From: Spirochaetota bacterium
GTDB lineage: Bacteria; Spirochaetota; Brachyspiria; Brachyspirales; JACRPF01
Length of the DNA: 64,000 bases
NCBI GenBank assembly: GCA_016214035.1
Contig: JACRPF010000018.1
Coordinates: 62,001-126,000 of the forward strand
Direction: 5' to 3'
The notes beneath the pieces are model-generated. The model made no database searches. It worked only from the letters and a program-made list of their open reading frames with translations, and was not told where the DNA came from. How positions within the stretch are numbered: the stretch's first letter is position 1; every line of letters starts with the position of its first letter. Shown one piece after another: positions 26,580 through 34,423 of this stretch. The translations under genes were made by a program, and so were the position numbers.

Positions 26580-27125
26580 ATGCTCAACGACAATGAACGT
26601 CAATTTCTTCTGAAAACAGTGCGTTCGGTTATCCGCGCCCGGCTTGATAAAAAAAGCATCCCGCAGTACAACCATGCCGGAGAGCACCTATTGACCCGCG
26701 CGGGTATTTTTGTAACACTTCACTTAAAAAACGGATCGTTGCGCGGATGCATCGGCTACATTGAAGGAATAAAACCGCTCATCGAAGGCGTCGTTGAGAT
26801 GGCTCAGGCGGCCGCTTTTCAGGACCCCCGCTTTCCGCCGCTTGAGGAGCACGAATACAACGACATCGTGATAGAAATCACCGTATTATCACCGCTGATA
26901 CGTATCAATGATCCTGACGAAATAATCGTGGGAAAGCATGGCCTGGTGATCACCAAAGGGTTTAATCACGGACTCCTGTTGCCGCAGGTACCTGTAGAAC
27001 AGGGATGGGATCGTGATACGTTCATTTCGCACACCTGCATGAAAGCCGGCCTTTCTCCTGATGCTTGGAAACGCGACAAGCTGACCATGGAGATATTTGA
27101 AGGCGAGGTCTTCGGCGAACGCTGA
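26580..27125 (+). CDS. AMMECR1-domain protein (AmmeMemoRadiSam protein A type)
   Basis: The 181-residue product is one AMMECR1 domain. It includes the invariant LRGCIG motif (GSLRGCIGYIEG), FQDPRFPPL, IEITVLSPL, and GLLLPQVPVEQGWDRDTFISHTCMKAGL. Archaeal and bacterial relatives occur with a Memo-like protein and a radical SAM enzyme, but neither partner is in this window. The Cys of LRGCIG is thought to be the catalytic or modified residue. GAGG lies ahead of the ATG. Confidence 0.9.
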   Translation: MLNDNERQFLLKTVRSVIRARLDKKSIPQYNHAGEHLLTRAGIFVTLHLKNGSLRGCIGYIEGIKPLIEGVVEMAQAAAFQDPRFPPLEEHEYNDIVIEITVLSPLIRINDPDEIIVGKHGLVITKGFNHGLLLPQVPVEQGWDRDTFISHTCMKAGLSPDAWKRDKLTMEIFEGEVFGER

Positions 27126-27312
27126 ACCGTTCCATCCCGATACAGCCGTCCACTTCCATTTTATATTCCGTAATAATTTTATACATTGCTTGGTTAAAAC
27201 CTTCTTTATCGGCTGTTTTCAGCCGTGTTCGGACCAACGAATATGCTATTTTCAGTTAGTTTTCTGGCATATCTTTTGCTTAATTTCCTGCATAAAAGAA
27301 ATGAGGTATTCT

Positions 27313-29907
27313 ATGCGTTTAGACAAGATGACAACAAAAGTGCAGGATGCGCTGTCCGCCGCACAAACAGCAGCTGTCGAGAACGGCAATCCCGAGATAG
27401 ATGATGTCCATCTGATGTCCGCATTCCTTTCACAGGATGGCGGCATACTTTCTCCGCTCGTTACTCGTCTTGCCGTAAATGCGGGTGCCCTGTTCACTGC
27501 GTTTGAAAACGAAATCGCACATCTGCCGAAAGTCGGAGGCGGCAATGCGCAGCTGGGCATTTCAGCACGTCTCTCACGCATTTTTGCGCGCGCAGAAAAA
27601 ACAGCTCAGAACATGCATGACGATTTTATTGCAAGCGAACATGTACTCCTTGCGGTACTCTCGCTCAAAGAAGGCCGCGCGCATGAGATACTGAAAAGTT
27701 TCGGCATAGACGAAGAGCGGACGCTCAACGCGCTCGCGCAGGTCCGCGGCGGTGAACGTGTGGACAATCCCGACGCCGAGAATAAATACCAGGCCATTGA
27801 AAAATATACGCGCGACCTAACCGATATGGCACGACGCGAGAAGATAGATCCCGTCATCGGACGCGACAACGAAATACGGCGTGTCATGCAGGTGCTTTCC
27901 CGCCGCACCAAGAACAATCCGGTGCTCATCGGCGAGGCGGGTGTTGGAAAAACAGCTATAGCCGAAGGTCTAGCGCGCCGAATCGTTTCAGGCGACGTCC
28001 CCGATGGGCTCAAAGAAAAAAAACTGGTGGCGCTCGATCTTGCGGCGCTTATCGCCGGAACGAAGTTCCGCGGAGAATTTGAGGAACGGCTAAAAGCGGT
28101 ACTCAAAGCGATTAGCGACGCCAACGGCAGCATCATTCTTTTTATCGACGAGTTGCATACACTGGTCGGCGCCGGAAGTGCTGAAGGCACTATGGACGCA
28201 TCCAATATGCTTAAACCGGCGCTCGCCCGCGGTGAATTGCGGTGCATCGGCGCTACAACACTGAACGAATATCACAAACACATTGAAAAGGACCCGGCGC
28301 TAGAACGCCGTTTCCAGCCGGTACTTGTTGAACCGCCGTCCGTTGAGGATACCGTAGCAATACTGCGCGGACTGAAAGAGCGGTATGAAGTACATCATGG
28401 CGTCCGTATCGCCGATGCCGCGCTCGTTGCCGCAGCGCAGCTTGCCGACCGCTACATCAGCGACCGTTTTCTTCCCGATAAGGCTATCGACCTGATGGAT
28501 GAGGCCGCATCGCGCATCAAGATCGAGATTGACAGCATGCCGGAGGAACTCGACAGCCTGAATCGTGAGATTATGCGGCTAGAAATTGAGCGCGAGGCAT
28601 TAAAAAAGGAAAAAGATGAAGCGTCGCAGAAACGGCGTGCCGAGCTCAACTCCGTTATCGCGGACAGAAAAGAGATGTTCTCGGGACTGAAGGCGAAATG
28701 GGACAACGAAAAAAAAGGCATCGCTGATATACGAATGCTTCAGGAATCCATCGAACGGCTGAAAGCGGAGGAAGCCGAGGCTCAGCGGCGCGGCAACCTC
28801 ACCCTTGCCGGAGAACTGCGCTACGGGAAAATACCCGCGGCAGAGAAGGCGCTGCACGCAGCCACACAAAAACTCCGGACCACAAACAACGGCACATCGC
28901 TCCTTCGCGAAGAAGTGACGGATGAGGATATCGCCAAGGTAGTCGCTTCGTGGACAGGTATTCCGGTGAGCCGGATGATGGAAGGAGAACGTGAGAAACT
29001 GCTGCGCATGGAGGAAGAACTTAAGAAACGCGTCATCGGACAGGACACGGCGCTCACCCGCGTTTCGGACGCCATACGTCGCAACCGTTCCGGACTTGCG
29101 GACGAGGCTCGTCCCGTGGGAAGTTTTCTTTTCATAGGACCTACCGGTGTCGGCAAAACGGAACTTGCAAAATCGCTTGCCGCGCTCCTCTTCGATGATG
29201 AACGGAACATGATTCGCGTGGACATGAGTGAATATATGGAAAAACATTCGGTAGCGAAACTCATCGGAGCCCCCCCGGGATATGTGGGCTATGAAGAAGG
29301 CGGGGCGCTCACTGAAGCGGTACGGCGCAAACCCTATGCCGTCATCCTGTTCGATGAGATTGAAAAGGCGCACCCCGACGTGTTCAATCTGCTCCTGCAG
29401 ATGCTGGATGACGGCCGTCTCACCGATTCCCAGGGCAGGACTGTCAACTTCAGGAACACTATCATCATCATGACAAGCAATATCGGCAGCGATGTGATGC
29501 AGGAATATCAGGCCAAGGGCGAATATCGTGAAGAGCAGATACTCGCGGCAATCGACAAGCTTATCCGTGGTTACTTCAAGCCTGAGTTTATCAACCGCAT
29601 CGACTCGATGATACTTTTTCATCCGCTCACCGCGGAAAACATCGGGGCGATCTTCGATCTGCAGTTTGCGCGGCTTGCCTCGCGTATCGCCTCACGGGGA
29701 ATAACCATTACGGCAACACCGCGTGTTAAGACATATGTCGCGGCGGTCGGTTATGATGTACAGTACGGCGCTCGCCCGCTGAAACGGGCCATTGAGCAGG
29801 AGATCATGAACCCGCTCTCAAAGCTGCTTCTAGCCGGCACTTACATTCCAGGCGACACCGTGACCGTTGATGTCGATTCAAACGGCAAGATAATATTCTC
29901 GAAATGA
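27313..29907 (+). CDS. clpB: ATP-dependent disaggregase ClpB
   Basis: The Hsp100 chaperone ClpB resolves aggregates together with DnaK. The 864-residue product has the Clp N-domain repeats (residues 5-145) and the first AAA+ domain with Walker [10 protein letters not shown] and Walker [10 protein letters not shown]. The long coiled-coil M-domain (about 405-525) and the second AAA+ domain ([23 protein letters not shown]) follow. I start at the ATG at 27313, after GAGGT. The frame is open 72 codons further up but without family similarity. The 187-bp gap upstream has a small hairpin (27210-27225) but no convincing CIRCE or sigma32 site. Confidence 0.95.
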
Positions 29908-29975: not shown

Positions 29976-30953
29976 TTATCGCTGCACCATCTTTTCAAGA
30001 TATGGCTCAAGTTCCGTTTTATAGAACCGGTCGCTTGCGTCTGAATTATAATAATAGAACGAGACGGTTATCAGCAGCATGGACTGGCGCATCTTTTTTT
30101 CGATGTATTTCAGGTTGCCCGGAAGTATCGATATATATACCGTGCGGAATTTCTCGCGCTGATTATCCGACATATACCACACGACGGTTGCATCCGCCGG
30201 CGTCATGTCGCTGCCGAGTGATTTGCTGAAGAGTCCCTTAAACGACCCGACATCGCCCTTTTTCGCCACCTTCAATGCGCTCCGCTCTGCGCCGGGAATA
30301 TTCGCCGCTTTTTCATAGCCGAGTGAGATTCGTTTCTTCATCGTCTCGACAACGCGCGGAAGCGTATCCTCGATGACCGGTGTGGTGTATTCATACGCGC
30401 TGAAACGATATGTCAAACCATAGAGTGATTCAACATTCCAATAATAGATATCCCATTCACCCTCGGTCAGTTTCTTACTCGGTATGGATATCCAGTAATC
30501 AGGTGTCGCGAATGTGAACCCGTTCAAGGTGCGCTGTGAGAAACTGACATCGTCAATCTTGCCGCCCTTGTCAAAATAATCACGATAGTAATCGAACGCC
30601 TTATTATACCATTTCTTGGCGCTGTAGGCGAGTGCAAGTCTCAGGGCCTTTTTTTTCGCATCACCAATTGCCTCACCATTGCGTATTGCTTCATCAAAGT
30701 TGCCAACATTATAGTACGCCTCGGACAGCCATACCGGCACCATTGCCGCGTCAAGCTTATCCTTATCTTCATGGCAATACTTGATGACCTTTGCAAACTC
30801 TTTGCTGTTATATACCGCCAGCACACGCTCGGTATACAGCTTTTTATTTGCCGGTTCCATCTCAATCTTCTTGGTAATTTTAATCTCGTCCATGACCGTC
30901 GCGCAGGACACGGCCAGTAGAAATGAACAGCAGAGAATTAATACGCGTTTCAT
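29976..30953 (-). CDS. TPR-containing lipoprotein, last gene of the envelope redox operon
   Basis: The N-terminus is a lipoprotein signal (MKRVLILCCSFLLAVSC). Residues about 40-130 are helical repeats of the tetratricopeptide kind (LYTERVLAVYNSKEFAKVIKYC, WLSEAYYNVGNFDEAIRNGEAI, ALAYSAKKWYNKAFDYYRDYF). The C-terminal 190 residues form a mixed alpha/beta domain (FTFATPDYWISIPSKK onward) that I cannot place. It is probably anchored in the periplasm. AGGAG precedes the ATG, 12 bp after the HtrA-like gene. Confidence 0.7.
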   Translation of the reverse strand: MKRVLILCCSFLLAVSCATVMDEIKITKKIEMEPANKKLYTERVLAVYNSKEFAKVIKYCHEDKDKLDAAMVPVWLSEAYYNVGNFDEAIRNGEAIGDAKKKALRLALAYSAKKWYNKAFDYYRDYFDKGGKIDDVSFSQRTLNGFTFATPDYWISIPSKKLTEGEWDIYYWNVESLYGLTYRFSAYEYTTPVIEDTLPRVVETMKKRISLGYEKAANIPGAERSALKVAKKGDVGSFKGLFSKSLGSDMTPADATVVWYMSDNQREKFRTVYISILPGNLKYIEKKMRQSMLLITVSFYYYNSDASDRFYKTELEPYLEKMVQR

Positions 30954-30965
30954 GCGTTGAGCTCC

Positions 30966-32351
30966 TTAGTAAGATGTCTTCATCATCGAGCCGCGGAAAA
31001 TCACCCGATTGCCGAATCCGCCGGGGGTCTTCGCGAAAAAGAGATCAAGTCCGAACTCGTCGCCATCGTACAGTATTGAATCCGGATAGATGAGTCCTGC
31101 AAGCTGAGCCATTTCACGGACCGGCTCAGGAATACCGTAGGGTTTCCCGGGCGCGATCTGAGCAAGGACGTCCCCCTCGCCGTATGAAACTTCCTTGCGC
31201 CCCCCGGTATGAAAATACACCCGTTTGACTTTGAAGGCTCCTGCTCCCGCTTTGCCGCCTTCCCGCGCAAGGTCGAAACCGAGATATAATCTGCAGAAAT
31301 TCTGAACATTAAACACGTCCTTTGCGGGACGTTCTCCGAGTGTCACCGGAACATTTTTACGCTCACCCTTGCTGACGACTGTAAGCGTGATCTGGGTACC
31401 GGCGGTTTTCTGATAGATGAGATTATGCATATCAAGATAACTGGTCACCGGAGAACCGTCAAAAGCGACGATCGCATCGGCAAAATTCAAACCGGCCGCT
31501 TTAGCCGGCGAATCTTCGGGGACGCCGATGACCAGCAGGCCTTCTGCGGGAAGCGTTTCATCGATATAATTGAAATCCCGTATGCCTTTATTTATCTCGC
31601 GCACATATGTACCGATATAGGGATATTTCATCGCACCGTTCTCAATCATATTCTTCAGAGAATTCCGCGCCATATCGGCAGGCACCGCGAGTCCGATACC
31701 GGCGCGCTTCGAACCGGTTGAAACGTTGATGCCGACGATGAGACCATCCTGATTGAGGAGCGGTCCGCCGTGGTCTTCAAGAACGACTTCCGCATTGAAT
31801 TGTATCAAATTTTCAATGTATGAAACACTTCTGCCTATGCGGTTCAGACGTGTCACCGCCGCACTGATGAGGTTCGCACTGCCGTCCTTGTAATTTCCGG
31901 CGGCTATTGCCTTGGTATCGGCCGCAAGCGAACCGGTTTCATCGAACTGCAGCGCCTCGGGCGCTTCTACAGATTCGTCATTCAATCTCAGGAGTGCGAT
32001 ATCGATGAATTGATCATAAGCCACTATTTTTGCCGGGTAATCCTTTCCGCCGGCAATCTTTACCGTAATACTGCTCATCGAACGGACAAGACTGTACGCG
32101 GTCGCGATATATCCTTTTTTATCGATGAACACCCCGACACCCGTCTTATTTTCACGGGGCAGCCATCTGCGATATCCGACAATGTTGCCTTTCGCAATGC
32201 ACGAAATGGAAACTACGGCATTCTTGACTTTCTGCACCGTTTCCTGTCCGCCGGTAAAGGTTATCTCGTCCTGTGGAAATGCAGCCGTCGCCGAAAAAAC
32301 GACAACGAAGCAAATCGCGGCCCAACAGCGTTTCATGCACATGGTTTTCAC
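30966..32351 (-). CDS. HtrA/DegP-like pseudoprotease with PDZ domain
   Basis: The 461-residue protein has a signal peptide, a trypsin-like HtrA fold (residues about 35-230) and one PDZ domain (about 245-345). A C-terminal region of unknown type follows. In the catalytic triad only Asp117 (QFIDIALL) is kept. The His of the usual TNNHV block is Ser87 (GYIATAYSLV), and the Ser of GNSGGPL is His194 (EDHGGPLLN). It should therefore lack serine-protease activity and act as a scaffold or peptide-binding protein. The GTG at 32351 overlaps the preceding stop. An ATG at 32342 with AGGTG upstream is an equally good start. Confidence 0.85.
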   Translation of the reverse strand: MKTMCMKRCWAAICFVVVFSATAAFPQDEITFTGGQETVQKVKNAVVSISCIAKGNIVGYRRWLPRENKTGVGVFIDKKGYIATAYSLVRSMSSITVKIAGGKDYPAKIVAYDQFIDIALLRLNDESVEAPEALQFDETGSLAADTKAIAAGNYKDGSANLISAAVTRLNRIGRSVSYIENLIQFNAEVVLEDHGGPLLNQDGLIVGINVSTGSKRAGIGLAVPADMARNSLKNMIENGAMKYPYIGTYVREINKGIRDFNYIDETLPAEGLLVIGVPEDSPAKAAGLNFADAIVAFDGSPVTSYLDMHNLIYQKTAGTQITLTVVSKGERKNVPVTLGERPAKDVFNVQNFCRLYLGFDLAREGGKAGAGAFKVKRVYFHTGGRKEVSYGEGDVLAQIAPGKPYGIPEPVREMAQLAGLIYPDSILYDGDEFGLDLFFAKTPGGFGNRVIFRGSMMKTSY

Positions 32352-32821
32352 CTGCCTTCGTTGCGGAAGAGCACATCGACCGCAAGAAAATGTTTTTCAG
32401 AAATAAGCGGCGGTATCGTGAGCGCGATGAATACAATATCGCGCAGGAATGTGAATATATCAAGGTTCTCACGCCAGCCGAAGAACTCGAAACAACCGCA
32501 ATCCATCTGCACACCGCGCGCGAGGTTTATCCCGATGCCGACGAGAAATCCCATCAGGAGCAGCGCAATACCGAGCGCCGCCGTCTGCGTACGGAACCCC
32601 AGCACGAGCATGCAGCCGAACACAAACTCGAACCACGGGATGAAAACCGCGACAAGCGGAGCGATGAATTCCGGCGCGACATTATAATTTATGAACGTCG
32701 CGGCGAAACTCACCGGATGAAATATCTTGCTGATGCTGGCGTAGATAAAAAGAGCGCCGATGAGTATCCGGCATACCAGTACCGTGAAACGGTTTGTTAT
32801 AATATCTTTAAACATGCTCAT
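32348..32821 (-). CDS. MauE/DoxX-family redox-associated membrane protein
   Basis: The 157-residue protein has four transmembrane segments in the DoxX/MauE arrangement. It begins VLVCRILIGALFIYASISKIFHP, and FEFVFGCMLVLGF lies in the second segment. A cysteine pair, CGCFEFFGW, sits in the loop after the third segment. MauE-type proteins support disulfide or quinone-linked redox steps at the membrane. It lies between the rhodanese-like and HtrA-like genes, overlapping both by 4 bases (ATGA and GTGA). An electron-passing role in this operon is inference. Confidence 0.82.
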   Translation of the reverse strand: MSMFKDIITNRFTVLVCRILIGALFIYASISKIFHPVSFAATFINYNVAPEFIAPLVAVFIPWFEFVFGCMLVLGFRTQTAALGIALLLMGFLVGIGINLARGVQMDCGCFEFFGWRENLDIFTFLRDIVFIALTIPPLISEKHFLAVDVLFRNEGR

Positions 32822-33282
32822 TTGCCGCGCTCCACGGGATATCCGTTTTTCACCCAGCTGTCAAAACCCGCCGTCATGACGTACAGCTTCTTCATTTTTG
32901 TCCGGGAATCGATCGAAAGCCGGTCCAGCGCCAGCTGATGCGATTTATTGCAATGCAGATCGGAACAATATACAACAACTTCCTTAGCCGCATCGATATA
33001 ATCATATACGCCGTTGATAAGTTCAAAATACTTCTCAACATCGAGCAGACGTGAACCTTTCACGCGGCCGGACGTATACTCGGATACGCTGCGTGCGTCC
33101 AGAAACAAGGCTCCCGCTTTGTACTTCTCGTATGCTATCTGTGTGTTTATGGTGATAACGTTATCATGCGGTCCGCGGAATTTATAGCCGTCGGGATAGA
33201 ACGCGTTAAATATGACGCCGGCACAGAAAACCAGCGCTGAAATAACCACAAGTTCTATAAGTATATTTCGCCACTTCAGCAT
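32818..33282 (-). CDS. Membrane-anchored rhodanese-like protein
   Basis: The N-terminal segment (residues 7-27, LIELVVISALVFCAGVIF) is a signal anchor. The rest is a rhodanese domain with FLDARSVSEYTSGRVKGS and the terminal TAGFDSWVKNGYPVE. The active-site loop reads YCSDLHCNKSHQ: the first Cys is at the usual place, but the loop holds a second Cys five residues on instead of the usual Arg. A cysteine pair there suggests thiol-disulfide chemistry rather than plain sulfur transfer. The domain probably faces the periplasm. Confidence 0.82.
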   Translation of the reverse strand: MLKWRNILIELVVISALVFCAGVIFNAFYPDGYKFRGPHDNVITINTQIAYEKYKAGALFLDARSVSEYTSGRVKGSRLLDVEKYFELINGVYDYIDAAKEVVVYCSDLHCNKSHQLALDRLSIDSRTKMKKLYVMTAGFDSWVKNGYPVERGK

Positions 33283-33283
33283 A

Positions 33284-34291
33284 TTATTTTATTTCCACCC
33301 TTCGTTTTTCAAATGCTTTCATTTCTTTTTGCACTACTTCATTGATCCACTCGCGGACTTTCGGGTCGTCCTTTTCCTTGCCGTAATCAAGGTAATGCAG
33401 TTTCATCTGCTTGAGCATCACTTTGCCGTTCCATATTCTGAATGTCGCGGCGCCTACACGGTTCCCGTTCGGTCCGCTGGTAAGCAGATACTTGCCGTCA
33501 AAATCAACCAGCTTCATATCAATCTCTTCGCGGTCATATGACATATCAGGGTCTTTGACCGGCAAATGCTGATCATGGCCGCCTACGACAATCGATAACT
33601 CGGGTATTTTTTTCAAAAGGTCCGCTTCCCGGTCGTAGCCTGCATGCGCAACGAGCATGATCACGTCCACTTTCTGCGCCGCAAGTTCCTTGGCGTATTT
33701 TGAGATCGCCTGCACATCGCTTTCAACATCGACATCATTCTTTATCGCCGCTTTTTGATAACGGAATGCAACATCGCCTGTAGCACCGATGATACCGACC
33801 TTTACCCCGCCGACATTTTTTATCAGATACGGGGTTCCAAATGCCGCGGCTTTACCGTCTTCCTTGAGCGTAACATTCGCGTTCAGATACGGCAGCGTTT
33901 TCGCTTCGTTCAGGAAATAAGCGACGCCTTTTGACAGGTCCTGATCGCCGAGTACGATGGCGTCATATTTCATGTACCGGAATCCTTCGAATATATACGG
34001 CTCTTTTATCGGCCGCTCGACAGCAACACCGTTCACAATCGCTTTCTCTTTAAGATACATCTGATCCGGTGACAATATATCGCCTGATTCGACAAGGACG
34101 GTATTCTTGTTCTGCTTGCGGTACTCATTCAGAAAGTACGCACGTTTCACGAGGCCGCTTTTCGGATTTGACTTGCAGAAACAGCCGTCAAGATTCCCGT
34201 TCAATGATGCGGTGAAGAGAACCGTAAACTCCTGCGCTTGAAGCACGCTGAACGCAACAGCGGCTGCAAACAAAACAAGAATTGCTCTCAC
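33284..34291 (-). CDS. UshA-like metallophosphoesterase homologue with altered metal site
   Basis: A signal peptide (residues 1-19) precedes a 5'-nucleotidase/UshA-like N-domain. The kept motifs are SGDIL (metal-bridging Asp), VAHAGYD and GGHDQH. The first motif, normally N-D-x-H-G, reads ASLNGNLDGC, and the GNHE motif reads GDQDLS, so several metal ligands are replaced. The block NLDGCFCKSNPKSGLVKRA is typical of the redox-associated UshA-like branch whose relatives include selenoproteins. Here the positions are Cys. The GTG start has GGAGG seven bases upstream. First gene of the operon. Confidence 0.8.
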   Translation of the reverse strand: MRAILVLFAAAVAFSVLQAQEFTVLFTASLNGNLDGCFCKSNPKSGLVKRAYFLNEYRKQNKNTVLVESGDILSPDQMYLKEKAIVNGVAVERPIKEPYIFEGFRYMKYDAIVLGDQDLSKGVAYFLNEAKTLPYLNANVTLKEDGKAAAFGTPYLIKNVGGVKVGIIGATGDVAFRYQKAAIKNDVDVESDVQAISKYAKELAAQKVDVIMLVAHAGYDREADLLKKIPELSIVVGGHDQHLPVKDPDMSYDREEIDMKLVDFDGKYLLTSGPNGNRVGAATFRIWNGKVMLKQMKLHYLDYGKEKDDPKVREWINEVVQKEMKAFEKRRVEIK

Positions 34292-34323
34292 GTTGATACC
34301 TCCGGAATTACTGTGGCGGACAT

Positions 34324-34366
34324 GGAAAATTCATAAAAAATGATACAAAACGTCTATGAATTTTCC
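34324..34366 (-). promoter_or_regulatory. Stable 5'-UTR hairpin of the envelope redox operon
   Basis: A 12-bp perfect stem (34324-34335 with 34355-34366, GGAAAATTCATA and TATGAATTTTCC) has a 19-base loop. The flanks can extend it (CTGTG at 34311-34315 with CACAG at 34370-34374). It lies between the promoter and the GGAGG ribosome-binding site, and no U-run follows it. Confidence 0.55.
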
Positions 34367-34394
34367 GAACACAGTTTCGTACTATGTTCCAGAC

Positions 34395-34423
34395 AGTATA
34401 GTCAATTTGACGGTTTTCGTCAA
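34395..34423 (-). promoter_or_regulatory. Sigma70-type promoter of the envelope redox operon
   Basis: On the minus strand TTGACG (34418-34423) and TATACT (34395-34400) have a 17-bp spacer, just after the leuA stop. Transcription would begin near 34388, giving a leader of about 97 nt. Confidence 0.65.

Follow-up and report, generated by a model that had tools for sequence, protein, structure and literature searches.

The window analyzed here comprises 64,000 nucleotides (nt) of contig JACRPF010000018.1 (positions 62,001 to 126,000, forward strand) from a bacterium of the phylum Spirochaetota (assembly GCA_016214035.1; genome of 5.21 Mb in 22 contigs). At positions 29976-34291, on the minus strand, five tightly packed genes lie head to tail and code for an UshA-like protein, a rhodanese, a MauE-family membrane protein, an HtrA-like protein and a TPR-like protein. 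For these genes and their relatives we computed gene order, motifs, loss of metal sites, fusions and co-occurrence. The operon consists of a core triad (UshA-like protein, rhodanese and MauE) and an HtrA-like/TPR-like add-on specific to the family, and on balance we favor the view that it encodes a periplasmic dithiol relay running through the CGC motif of MauE, the Cx4C motif of the rhodanese and the CxC motif of the UshA-like protein. The operon has the following features.

34395-34423, minus strand: putative sigma-70-like promoter, TTGACG-N17-TATACT (consensus scan and comparison with genome G147)
33284-34291, minus strand: UshA-like protein with a GTG start, a signal peptide, a single metallophosphatase domain and CxC (NCBIfam, alignment, structure model)
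34175-34183, minus strand: codons of C37-x-C39, invariant in the UshA-CxC family
32818-33282, minus strand: rhodanese domain on an N-terminal membrane anchor (PF00581)
32950-32967, minus strand: codons of C106-x4-C111 in the active loop of the rhodanese
32348-32821, minus strand: MauE/DoxX-family membrane protein with four predicted transmembrane helices (PF07291, PF07681)
32492-32500, minus strand: codons of the MauE loop motif C108-G-C110
30966-32351, minus strand: HtrA-like PDZ pseudoprotease with C51 and C353 in its mature part (Trypsin_2, PDZ_2)
29976-30953, minus strand: TPR-like envelope protein, possible lipoprotein (weak PF13181 match)

A first-pass annotation of this DNA had described five exported or membrane-bound gene products, and all five open reading frames (ORFs) are present. 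The junctions, in the order UshA-like/rhodanese/MauE/HtrA-like/TPR-like, measure +1, -4, -4 and +12 nt; the annotation had the last three right and gave the first gap as 2 nt, where there is 1 nt. The promoter that it placed at 34395-34423 is found by a consensus scan, which returned 16 such sites against 8.4 expected, so that a single site could be due to chance. The promoter is probably real, however, because identical -35 and -10 hexamers with the same 17-nt spacing stand at the orthologous position in G147, the only other genome of the same family in the genome set. All five genes occur in the same order in G147 (about 43-55% identity where measured), and since gene order and promoter are both kept there, there is good comparative evidence that the five genes form one transcription unit.

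The UshA-like domain and its redox partners

The UshA-like protein has no match in Pfam and is matched by 5'-nucleotidase models and by NCBIfam NF041198 (UshA_like_PCGU), the latter with 115.4 bits over model positions 6-237 of 519, short of the curated cut-off of 275. The CxC/CxU motif that follows the first strand in NF041198 is present as C37-x-C39, a pair that the first-pass annotation overlooked. The predicted structure (predicted local distance difference test [pLDDT] 88.9; predicted template modeling score 0.88) has the fold of the 5'-nucleotidase catalytic domain (Foldseek E 3e-21, query TM 0.64-0.74), in agreement with sequence profiles, and the nucleotide-binding C-terminal domain is missing. 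The protein thus has the catalytic-domain fold in common with 5'-nucleotidase, UshA and CpdB, whereas it lacks their DxH, catalytic NH and C-terminal domain and has CxC.

The metal-binding and catalytic residues have been exchanged, with DxH replaced by S-x-N and NH by DQ, and the CxC motif sits six residues past the former DxH. Aligned homologues fall into two groups that do not overlap: every sequence with CxC lacks DxH, and every sequence with DxH or NH lacks CxC. The CxC homologues carry S/N/A/C-x-N (in one case S-x-T) in place of DxH and DQ in place of NH. CxC is present in 24/24 members of a spirochaete set chosen by similarity alone, and it is invariant among 36 aligned relatives (alignment A3) in a set partly picked by the motif. 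Two aligned homologues have DQ and no CxC, one of them with SxS; the UshA ORF of locus L101 (460 amino acids [aa]) is a TlpA-UshA fusion in which SxS replaces CxC. In Escherichia coli UshA, two metal-1 ligands come from DxH and a metal-2 ligand is N116, with H117 as the catalytic residue; it is for this reason unlikely that metal 1 is bound as before, while metal 2 could be partly retained. An active 5'-nucleotidase or UDP-sugar hydrolase was rejected because the catalytic residues are lost. Since the pocket residues D71, D116, Q117, H216, H239 and Q241 are invariant or nearly so, we propose that the pocket is still an active site.

The same domain, with CxC or CxU in the same place, occurs in the UshA-like (seleno)proteins of NF041198, and a CxC relative from Marinimicrobia clears that model's cut-off (279.5 versus 275). 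The window protein differs in consisting of the N-terminal domain only, with no cytochrome part and with a rhodanese and MauE as partners. CxU selenoproteins exist in the UshA-like family (PMC2398784, PMC13188914), and the UshA-like CxU protein has been listed in selenoprotein catalogues without a function (PMC2398784, PMC9312934, PMC13188914). The 2008 catalogue counted UshA-like among three major families in which no cysteine redox motif was recognized (PMC2398784).

Partners of the domain were compared at CxC loci from Spirochaetes, Elusimicrobia, Marinimicrobia, Latescibacterota, KSB1, Edwardsbacteria, Desantisbacteria, Lentisphaerae and others, with loci classified by alignment and a partner defined as a thiol or heme redox gene that is fused to the UshA gene or lies on the same strand within 3 kb. 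Such a partner accompanies 49 of 60 CxC loci, whereas none of the 22 loci with the canonical metal site has one (Fisher p 3.8e-12, a value that overstates the evidence because the controls come partly from other lineages and loci of the same phylum are related to one another). The variety of the partners, which include rhodanese plus MauE, AhpC-TSA/TlpA, DsbD-like proteins and multiheme cytochromes, is a stronger point than the p value. In Elusimicrobia a TlpA-UshA fusion lies beside genes for DUF1573-thioredoxin (Trx)-DsbD-like proteins, in Edwardsbacteria a single 800-aa protein has the order UshA-Trx-Trx-DsbD-like, and in KSB1 and Marinimicrobia UshA is joined to Cytochrome_C554. Because UshA-CxC is repeatedly joined to thiol or heme electron carriers across bacteria, the UshA-like protein is probably neither a phosphatase nor a scaffold but an envelope redox enzyme that has gone unrecognized. 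The first-pass annotation had taken it for a binding or scaffold part, a role that does not fit the invariant CxC by the former metal site or the fusions to thioredoxin-like, DsbD-like and multiheme cytochrome domains elsewhere.

Beside 20 of the 60 CxC loci, as a recurrent neighbor in other phyla, lies a gene for a CsgG-like protein in which an SGC-x4-5-C pair is conserved (e.g., L105:5921-7291, L083:2749-4098, L077:6062-7438 and L118:3211-4644); this protein is a candidate client of the redox system.

The core triad and the family-specific pair

The cysteine pairs that the first-pass annotation had seen in the rhodanese loop and in MauE are present, as C106/C111 and C108-G-C110, respectively. 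The rhodanese domain matches PF00581 (E 6.7e-9; 36.5 bits versus a gathering threshold of 22.2) with C106 in the loop, and the Cx4C loop is retained in nearly all relatives; a sequence search of the Protein Data Bank (PDB) gave no match for it. Its best NCBIfam match is TsoB (NF045694), at 31.7 bits over the rhodanese half only and far from the cut-off of 805. TsoB, named as a rhodanese/DsbD fusion, has been catalogued with UxxxxU (PMC13188914), the spacing of which equals that of CxxxxC here. The two have the rhodanese half in common, whereas the rhodanese of the window is a separate, anchored protein beside MauE and is not fused to a DsbD-like part.

MauE matches PF07291 (E 7e-27; 94.7 bits versus a gathering threshold of 27) and the DoxX model PF07681 (E 6e-10). 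Its CGC motif is located in the long loop that joins helices 3 and 4 (model pLDDT 82.7), is retained in every relative whose loop is present, and appears from the charge distribution to face outward. A MauE-family membrane protein with CGC is also part of the MauE/MauD system of methylamine dehydrogenase, where MauE is thought to work with a thioredoxin-like partner, whereas the partners here are a rhodanese and UshA-CxC. No mau genes were seen beside the operon, and no genome-wide search for mauA, mauB or mauD was made.

The UshA-like protein was searched for in 296 genomes of the phylum, and a matching protein of the CxC type was found in 24, the window genome included. In 16 of these 24 genomes, which belong to several families, the UshA-like, rhodanese and MauE genes follow one another directly and in the same order; the figure becomes 17 of 25 if a divergent CxC UshA copy in genome G107 is counted. 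A reverse search with a MauE matched 27 genomes, and the rhodanese adjoins MauE in nearly all of those with intact contigs; UshA lies beside the pair in 16 of the 27 (G107 counted; G215, with MauE at a contig end, left out), and in the remaining genomes the rhodanese-MauE pair stands alone or contig ends interrupt. Other partners occur within the phylum as well, with a DUF1573-Trx-DsbD-like gene adjoining UshA in G036 and a TlpA-like gene beside it in G025. The first-pass annotation had suggested that the five genes form an undescribed envelope thiol-redox system whose members should be found together in related genomes. They are, the triad in 16 of 24 genomes and all five genes in both genomes of the family, and the suggestion is supported for the UshA-like/rhodanese/MauE core and not for five genes as one ancestral system. 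An ancient five-gene system was rejected because the HtrA-like/TPR-like pair is confined to this family and occurs in several copies.

The spirochaete UshA or rhodanese gene is often immediately preceded by one of about 680-700 aa that, judged by eye, has GAF and HD-GYP-like domains (L151, L154, L157, L044-L046, L049). In one spirochaete family, SelU-like genes (rhodanese plus P-loop, a make-up read from the equivalent gene L085:677-1723) are found near rhodanese-MauE or UshA (L150:1889-2938, L153:2422-3480, L161:2724-3770) and constitute a possible link to selenium.

The HtrA-like protein matches Trypsin_2 (E 1.2e-19) and PDZ_2 (E 3.7e-13), and its score against TIGR02037 (159.7 bits) does not reach the cut-off of 416.2. 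As the first-pass annotation had noted, it lacks the catalytic His and Ser, which are replaced by Ser87 and His194; Asp117 is retained, the His-Asp-Ser triad is broken, and an active HtrA protease was rejected. What the same annotation called a TPR lipoprotein is a TPR-like envelope protein and a possible lipoprotein; its TPR match (PF13181, 17 bits) is under the gathering cut-off of 25.7, and its lipobox Cys is not conserved in G147. Each of the two genomes of the family carries three HtrA-like copies, each followed by a TPR-like envelope gene (in one pair by position only), and in each genome only one pair adjoins the triad and two lie away from any triad. In the unlinked HtrA-like copies the catalytic residues are intact (YHVV or HHVV, and GNSGG), whereas the corresponding stretches of the linked copies read YSLV and EDHGG or EDLGG. 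A Cys at position 51 of the window protein occurs in both linked copies and in no unlinked copy, and Cys353 in both linked copies and one other. The protease domain and PDZ are thus as in the DegP/DegQ HtrA proteases, with the catalytic His and Ser replaced only in linked copies. Because only the linked copy has lost His/Ser and has Cys51, and five-gene order and promoter are kept, it may have specialized with the triad; two genera are few, and the pattern is suggestive only. Unlinked pairs with an intact catalytic triad are found at L145:7237-9550, L146:5860-8216, L147:7819-9955 and L148:7298-8939.

A proposed dithiol relay and its rivals

How might such a relay work? MauE, via CGC on its predicted outer loop, would trade electrons with the membrane, the anchored rhodanese would hand them on through Cx4C as a disulfide or persulfide, and the exported UshA-like protein would be the soluble end that meets the substrate with its CxC. 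The UshA-like protein would be a 5'-nucleotidase metallophosphatase domain turned redox domain (with a selenothiol in the CxU relatives) that needs a partner for electron exchange. We infer the electron flow, for which a reductive direction is preferred, and the role of the HtrA-like/TPR-like pair, which may have been recruited in the family, most simply as a PDZ substrate-presenting adaptor through which envelope proteins might be held ready for the relay or presented to it. MauE and the rhodanese probably stand in for DsbD-like, TlpA-like and multiheme cytochrome electron suppliers, because the same UshA domain is wired to those suppliers in other phyla; the rhodanese and the UshA-like protein both have DsbD-wired relatives, so that MauE would occupy the position of the conduit. 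The closest working comparison is DsbD/CcdA-TlpA, in which a membrane conduit feeds a periplasmic thiol protein and to whose DsbD-like and TlpA-like components the UshA domain is linked elsewhere, whereas the conduit candidate here, MauE, has no detectable relation to DsbD.

Several observations weigh against the relay. One or both rhodanese cysteines are lost in two genomes. MauE has no fold match in the PDB (structure search, E above 1), a result that speaks neither for nor against a DsbB/VKOR-like or DsbD-like fold, and no PDB sequence match, so that a quinone- or DsbD-like mechanism for it would be conjecture. The label DsbD-like for the DUF1573-thioredoxin-membrane proteins stands for NPC and CTGQ motifs, and Pfam and PDB searches gave no match that confirms the domain. 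The window genome also carries ordinary DsbD and TlpA-like genes. UshA and rhodanese-MauE are not strictly interdependent, since about nine genomes have rhodanese-MauE without UshA and genus g12 has UshA-CxC but neither a redox neighbor nor, at E 1e-5, a MauE of the triad type.

The main alternative, which fits the same cysteines and which we consider unlikely, is sulfur transfer: sulfane sulfur would be loaded by the rhodanese and carried or hydrolyzed on CxC by the UshA-like protein, and MauE would pass electrons to quinone. The thiosulfohydrolase SoxB is distantly related to the UshA-like protein, profile searches retrieve SoxB structures, and for several CxC relatives the SoxB model TIGR04486 ranks with the best matches (48-103 bits), but the window protein reaches 40.9 bits against a cut-off of 550 and fits 5'-nucleotidase-type models better, and the metal site that SoxB needs is lost. 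The rhodanese does retain a Cys at the catalytic position, and MauE belongs to the DoxX/DoxD clan of thiosulfate:quinone oxidoreductase, with one relative giving a weak DoxD match (E 0.008); however, no SoxYZ or SoxA was noticed beside the loci, and in other phyla the UshA domain is partnered with general thiol carriers. It is more improbable still that CxC, Cx4C and CGC serve to bind copper or some other thiophilic metal on its way across the envelope. All three motifs could bind a soft metal, part of the phosphatase-site pocket remains, and MauE has a marginal match to HvfX of Cu-RiPP maturation (E 0.0045), yet the catalogued CxU versions and the fusions to TlpA, DsbD-like proteins and cytochromes suit redox chemistry better, and no metal transporter or chaperone recurs by the triad in the loci examined, where not every neighbor was annotated. 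The surface-assembly role that the first-pass annotation entertained found no support.

A different question is whether the HtrA-like/TPR-like pair belongs to the redox unit at all. It is plausible, if rather doubtful, that the triad is the redox unit and the pair a passenger with an unrelated envelope job and only the transcript in common, as would suit a family-specific paralogous module of which two of three copies per genome are unlinked to the triad. The loss of His/Ser and presence of Cys51 in the linked copy alone, in both genera, and the conserved five-gene order and promoter argue for a closer association.

A broader and more tentative reading of the relay, which could well be correct, is that a metallophosphatase fold has given rise to a new class of envelope thiol/selenol oxidoreductase in several phyla, with CxC or CxU by a vacated metal-1 site and perhaps one metal bound. 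Its suppliers would be interchangeable (DsbD-like proteins plus TlpA, multiheme cytochromes or spirochaete MauE-rhodanese), and in one family it would have its own pseudo-HtrA adaptor. No description of the UshA-rhodanese-MauE triad was found in the literature searched, to which the relevant Haft papers did not belong, and for MauE-plus-rhodanese operons, Tso genes and NF041198 that literature held catalogue entries only. We place the triad among envelope thiol-redox pathways, with the UshA-CxC domain possibly a new oxidoreductase class. The gene fusions, and the fact that CxC replaces the metal ligands without exception, open the redox role to direct testing and suggest that the UshA-CxC group is wrongly annotated as phosphatases. 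If the relay is real, MauE, which is widespread and whose chemistry is unclear, would gain a defined setting in which it may take the place of DsbD-like conduits. The HtrA-like protein, catalytically dead only when linked to redox genes, is a clear test case of pseudoenzyme recruitment.

Leader and flanking genes

The leader between the promoter and the UshA-like start contains one further feature.

34324-34366, minus strand: 12-nt perfect inverted repeat, GGAAAATTCATA / TATGAATTTTCC, 19 nt apart

This repeat is not present in G147 and is possibly an operator or an RNA hairpin. Upstream of the operon, leuA lies 143 nt away on the same strand, and the upstream gene is not the same in G147. Downstream, clpB (27097-29907) converges on the 3' end of the operon both here and in G147, and the two clpB genes are 72% identical.

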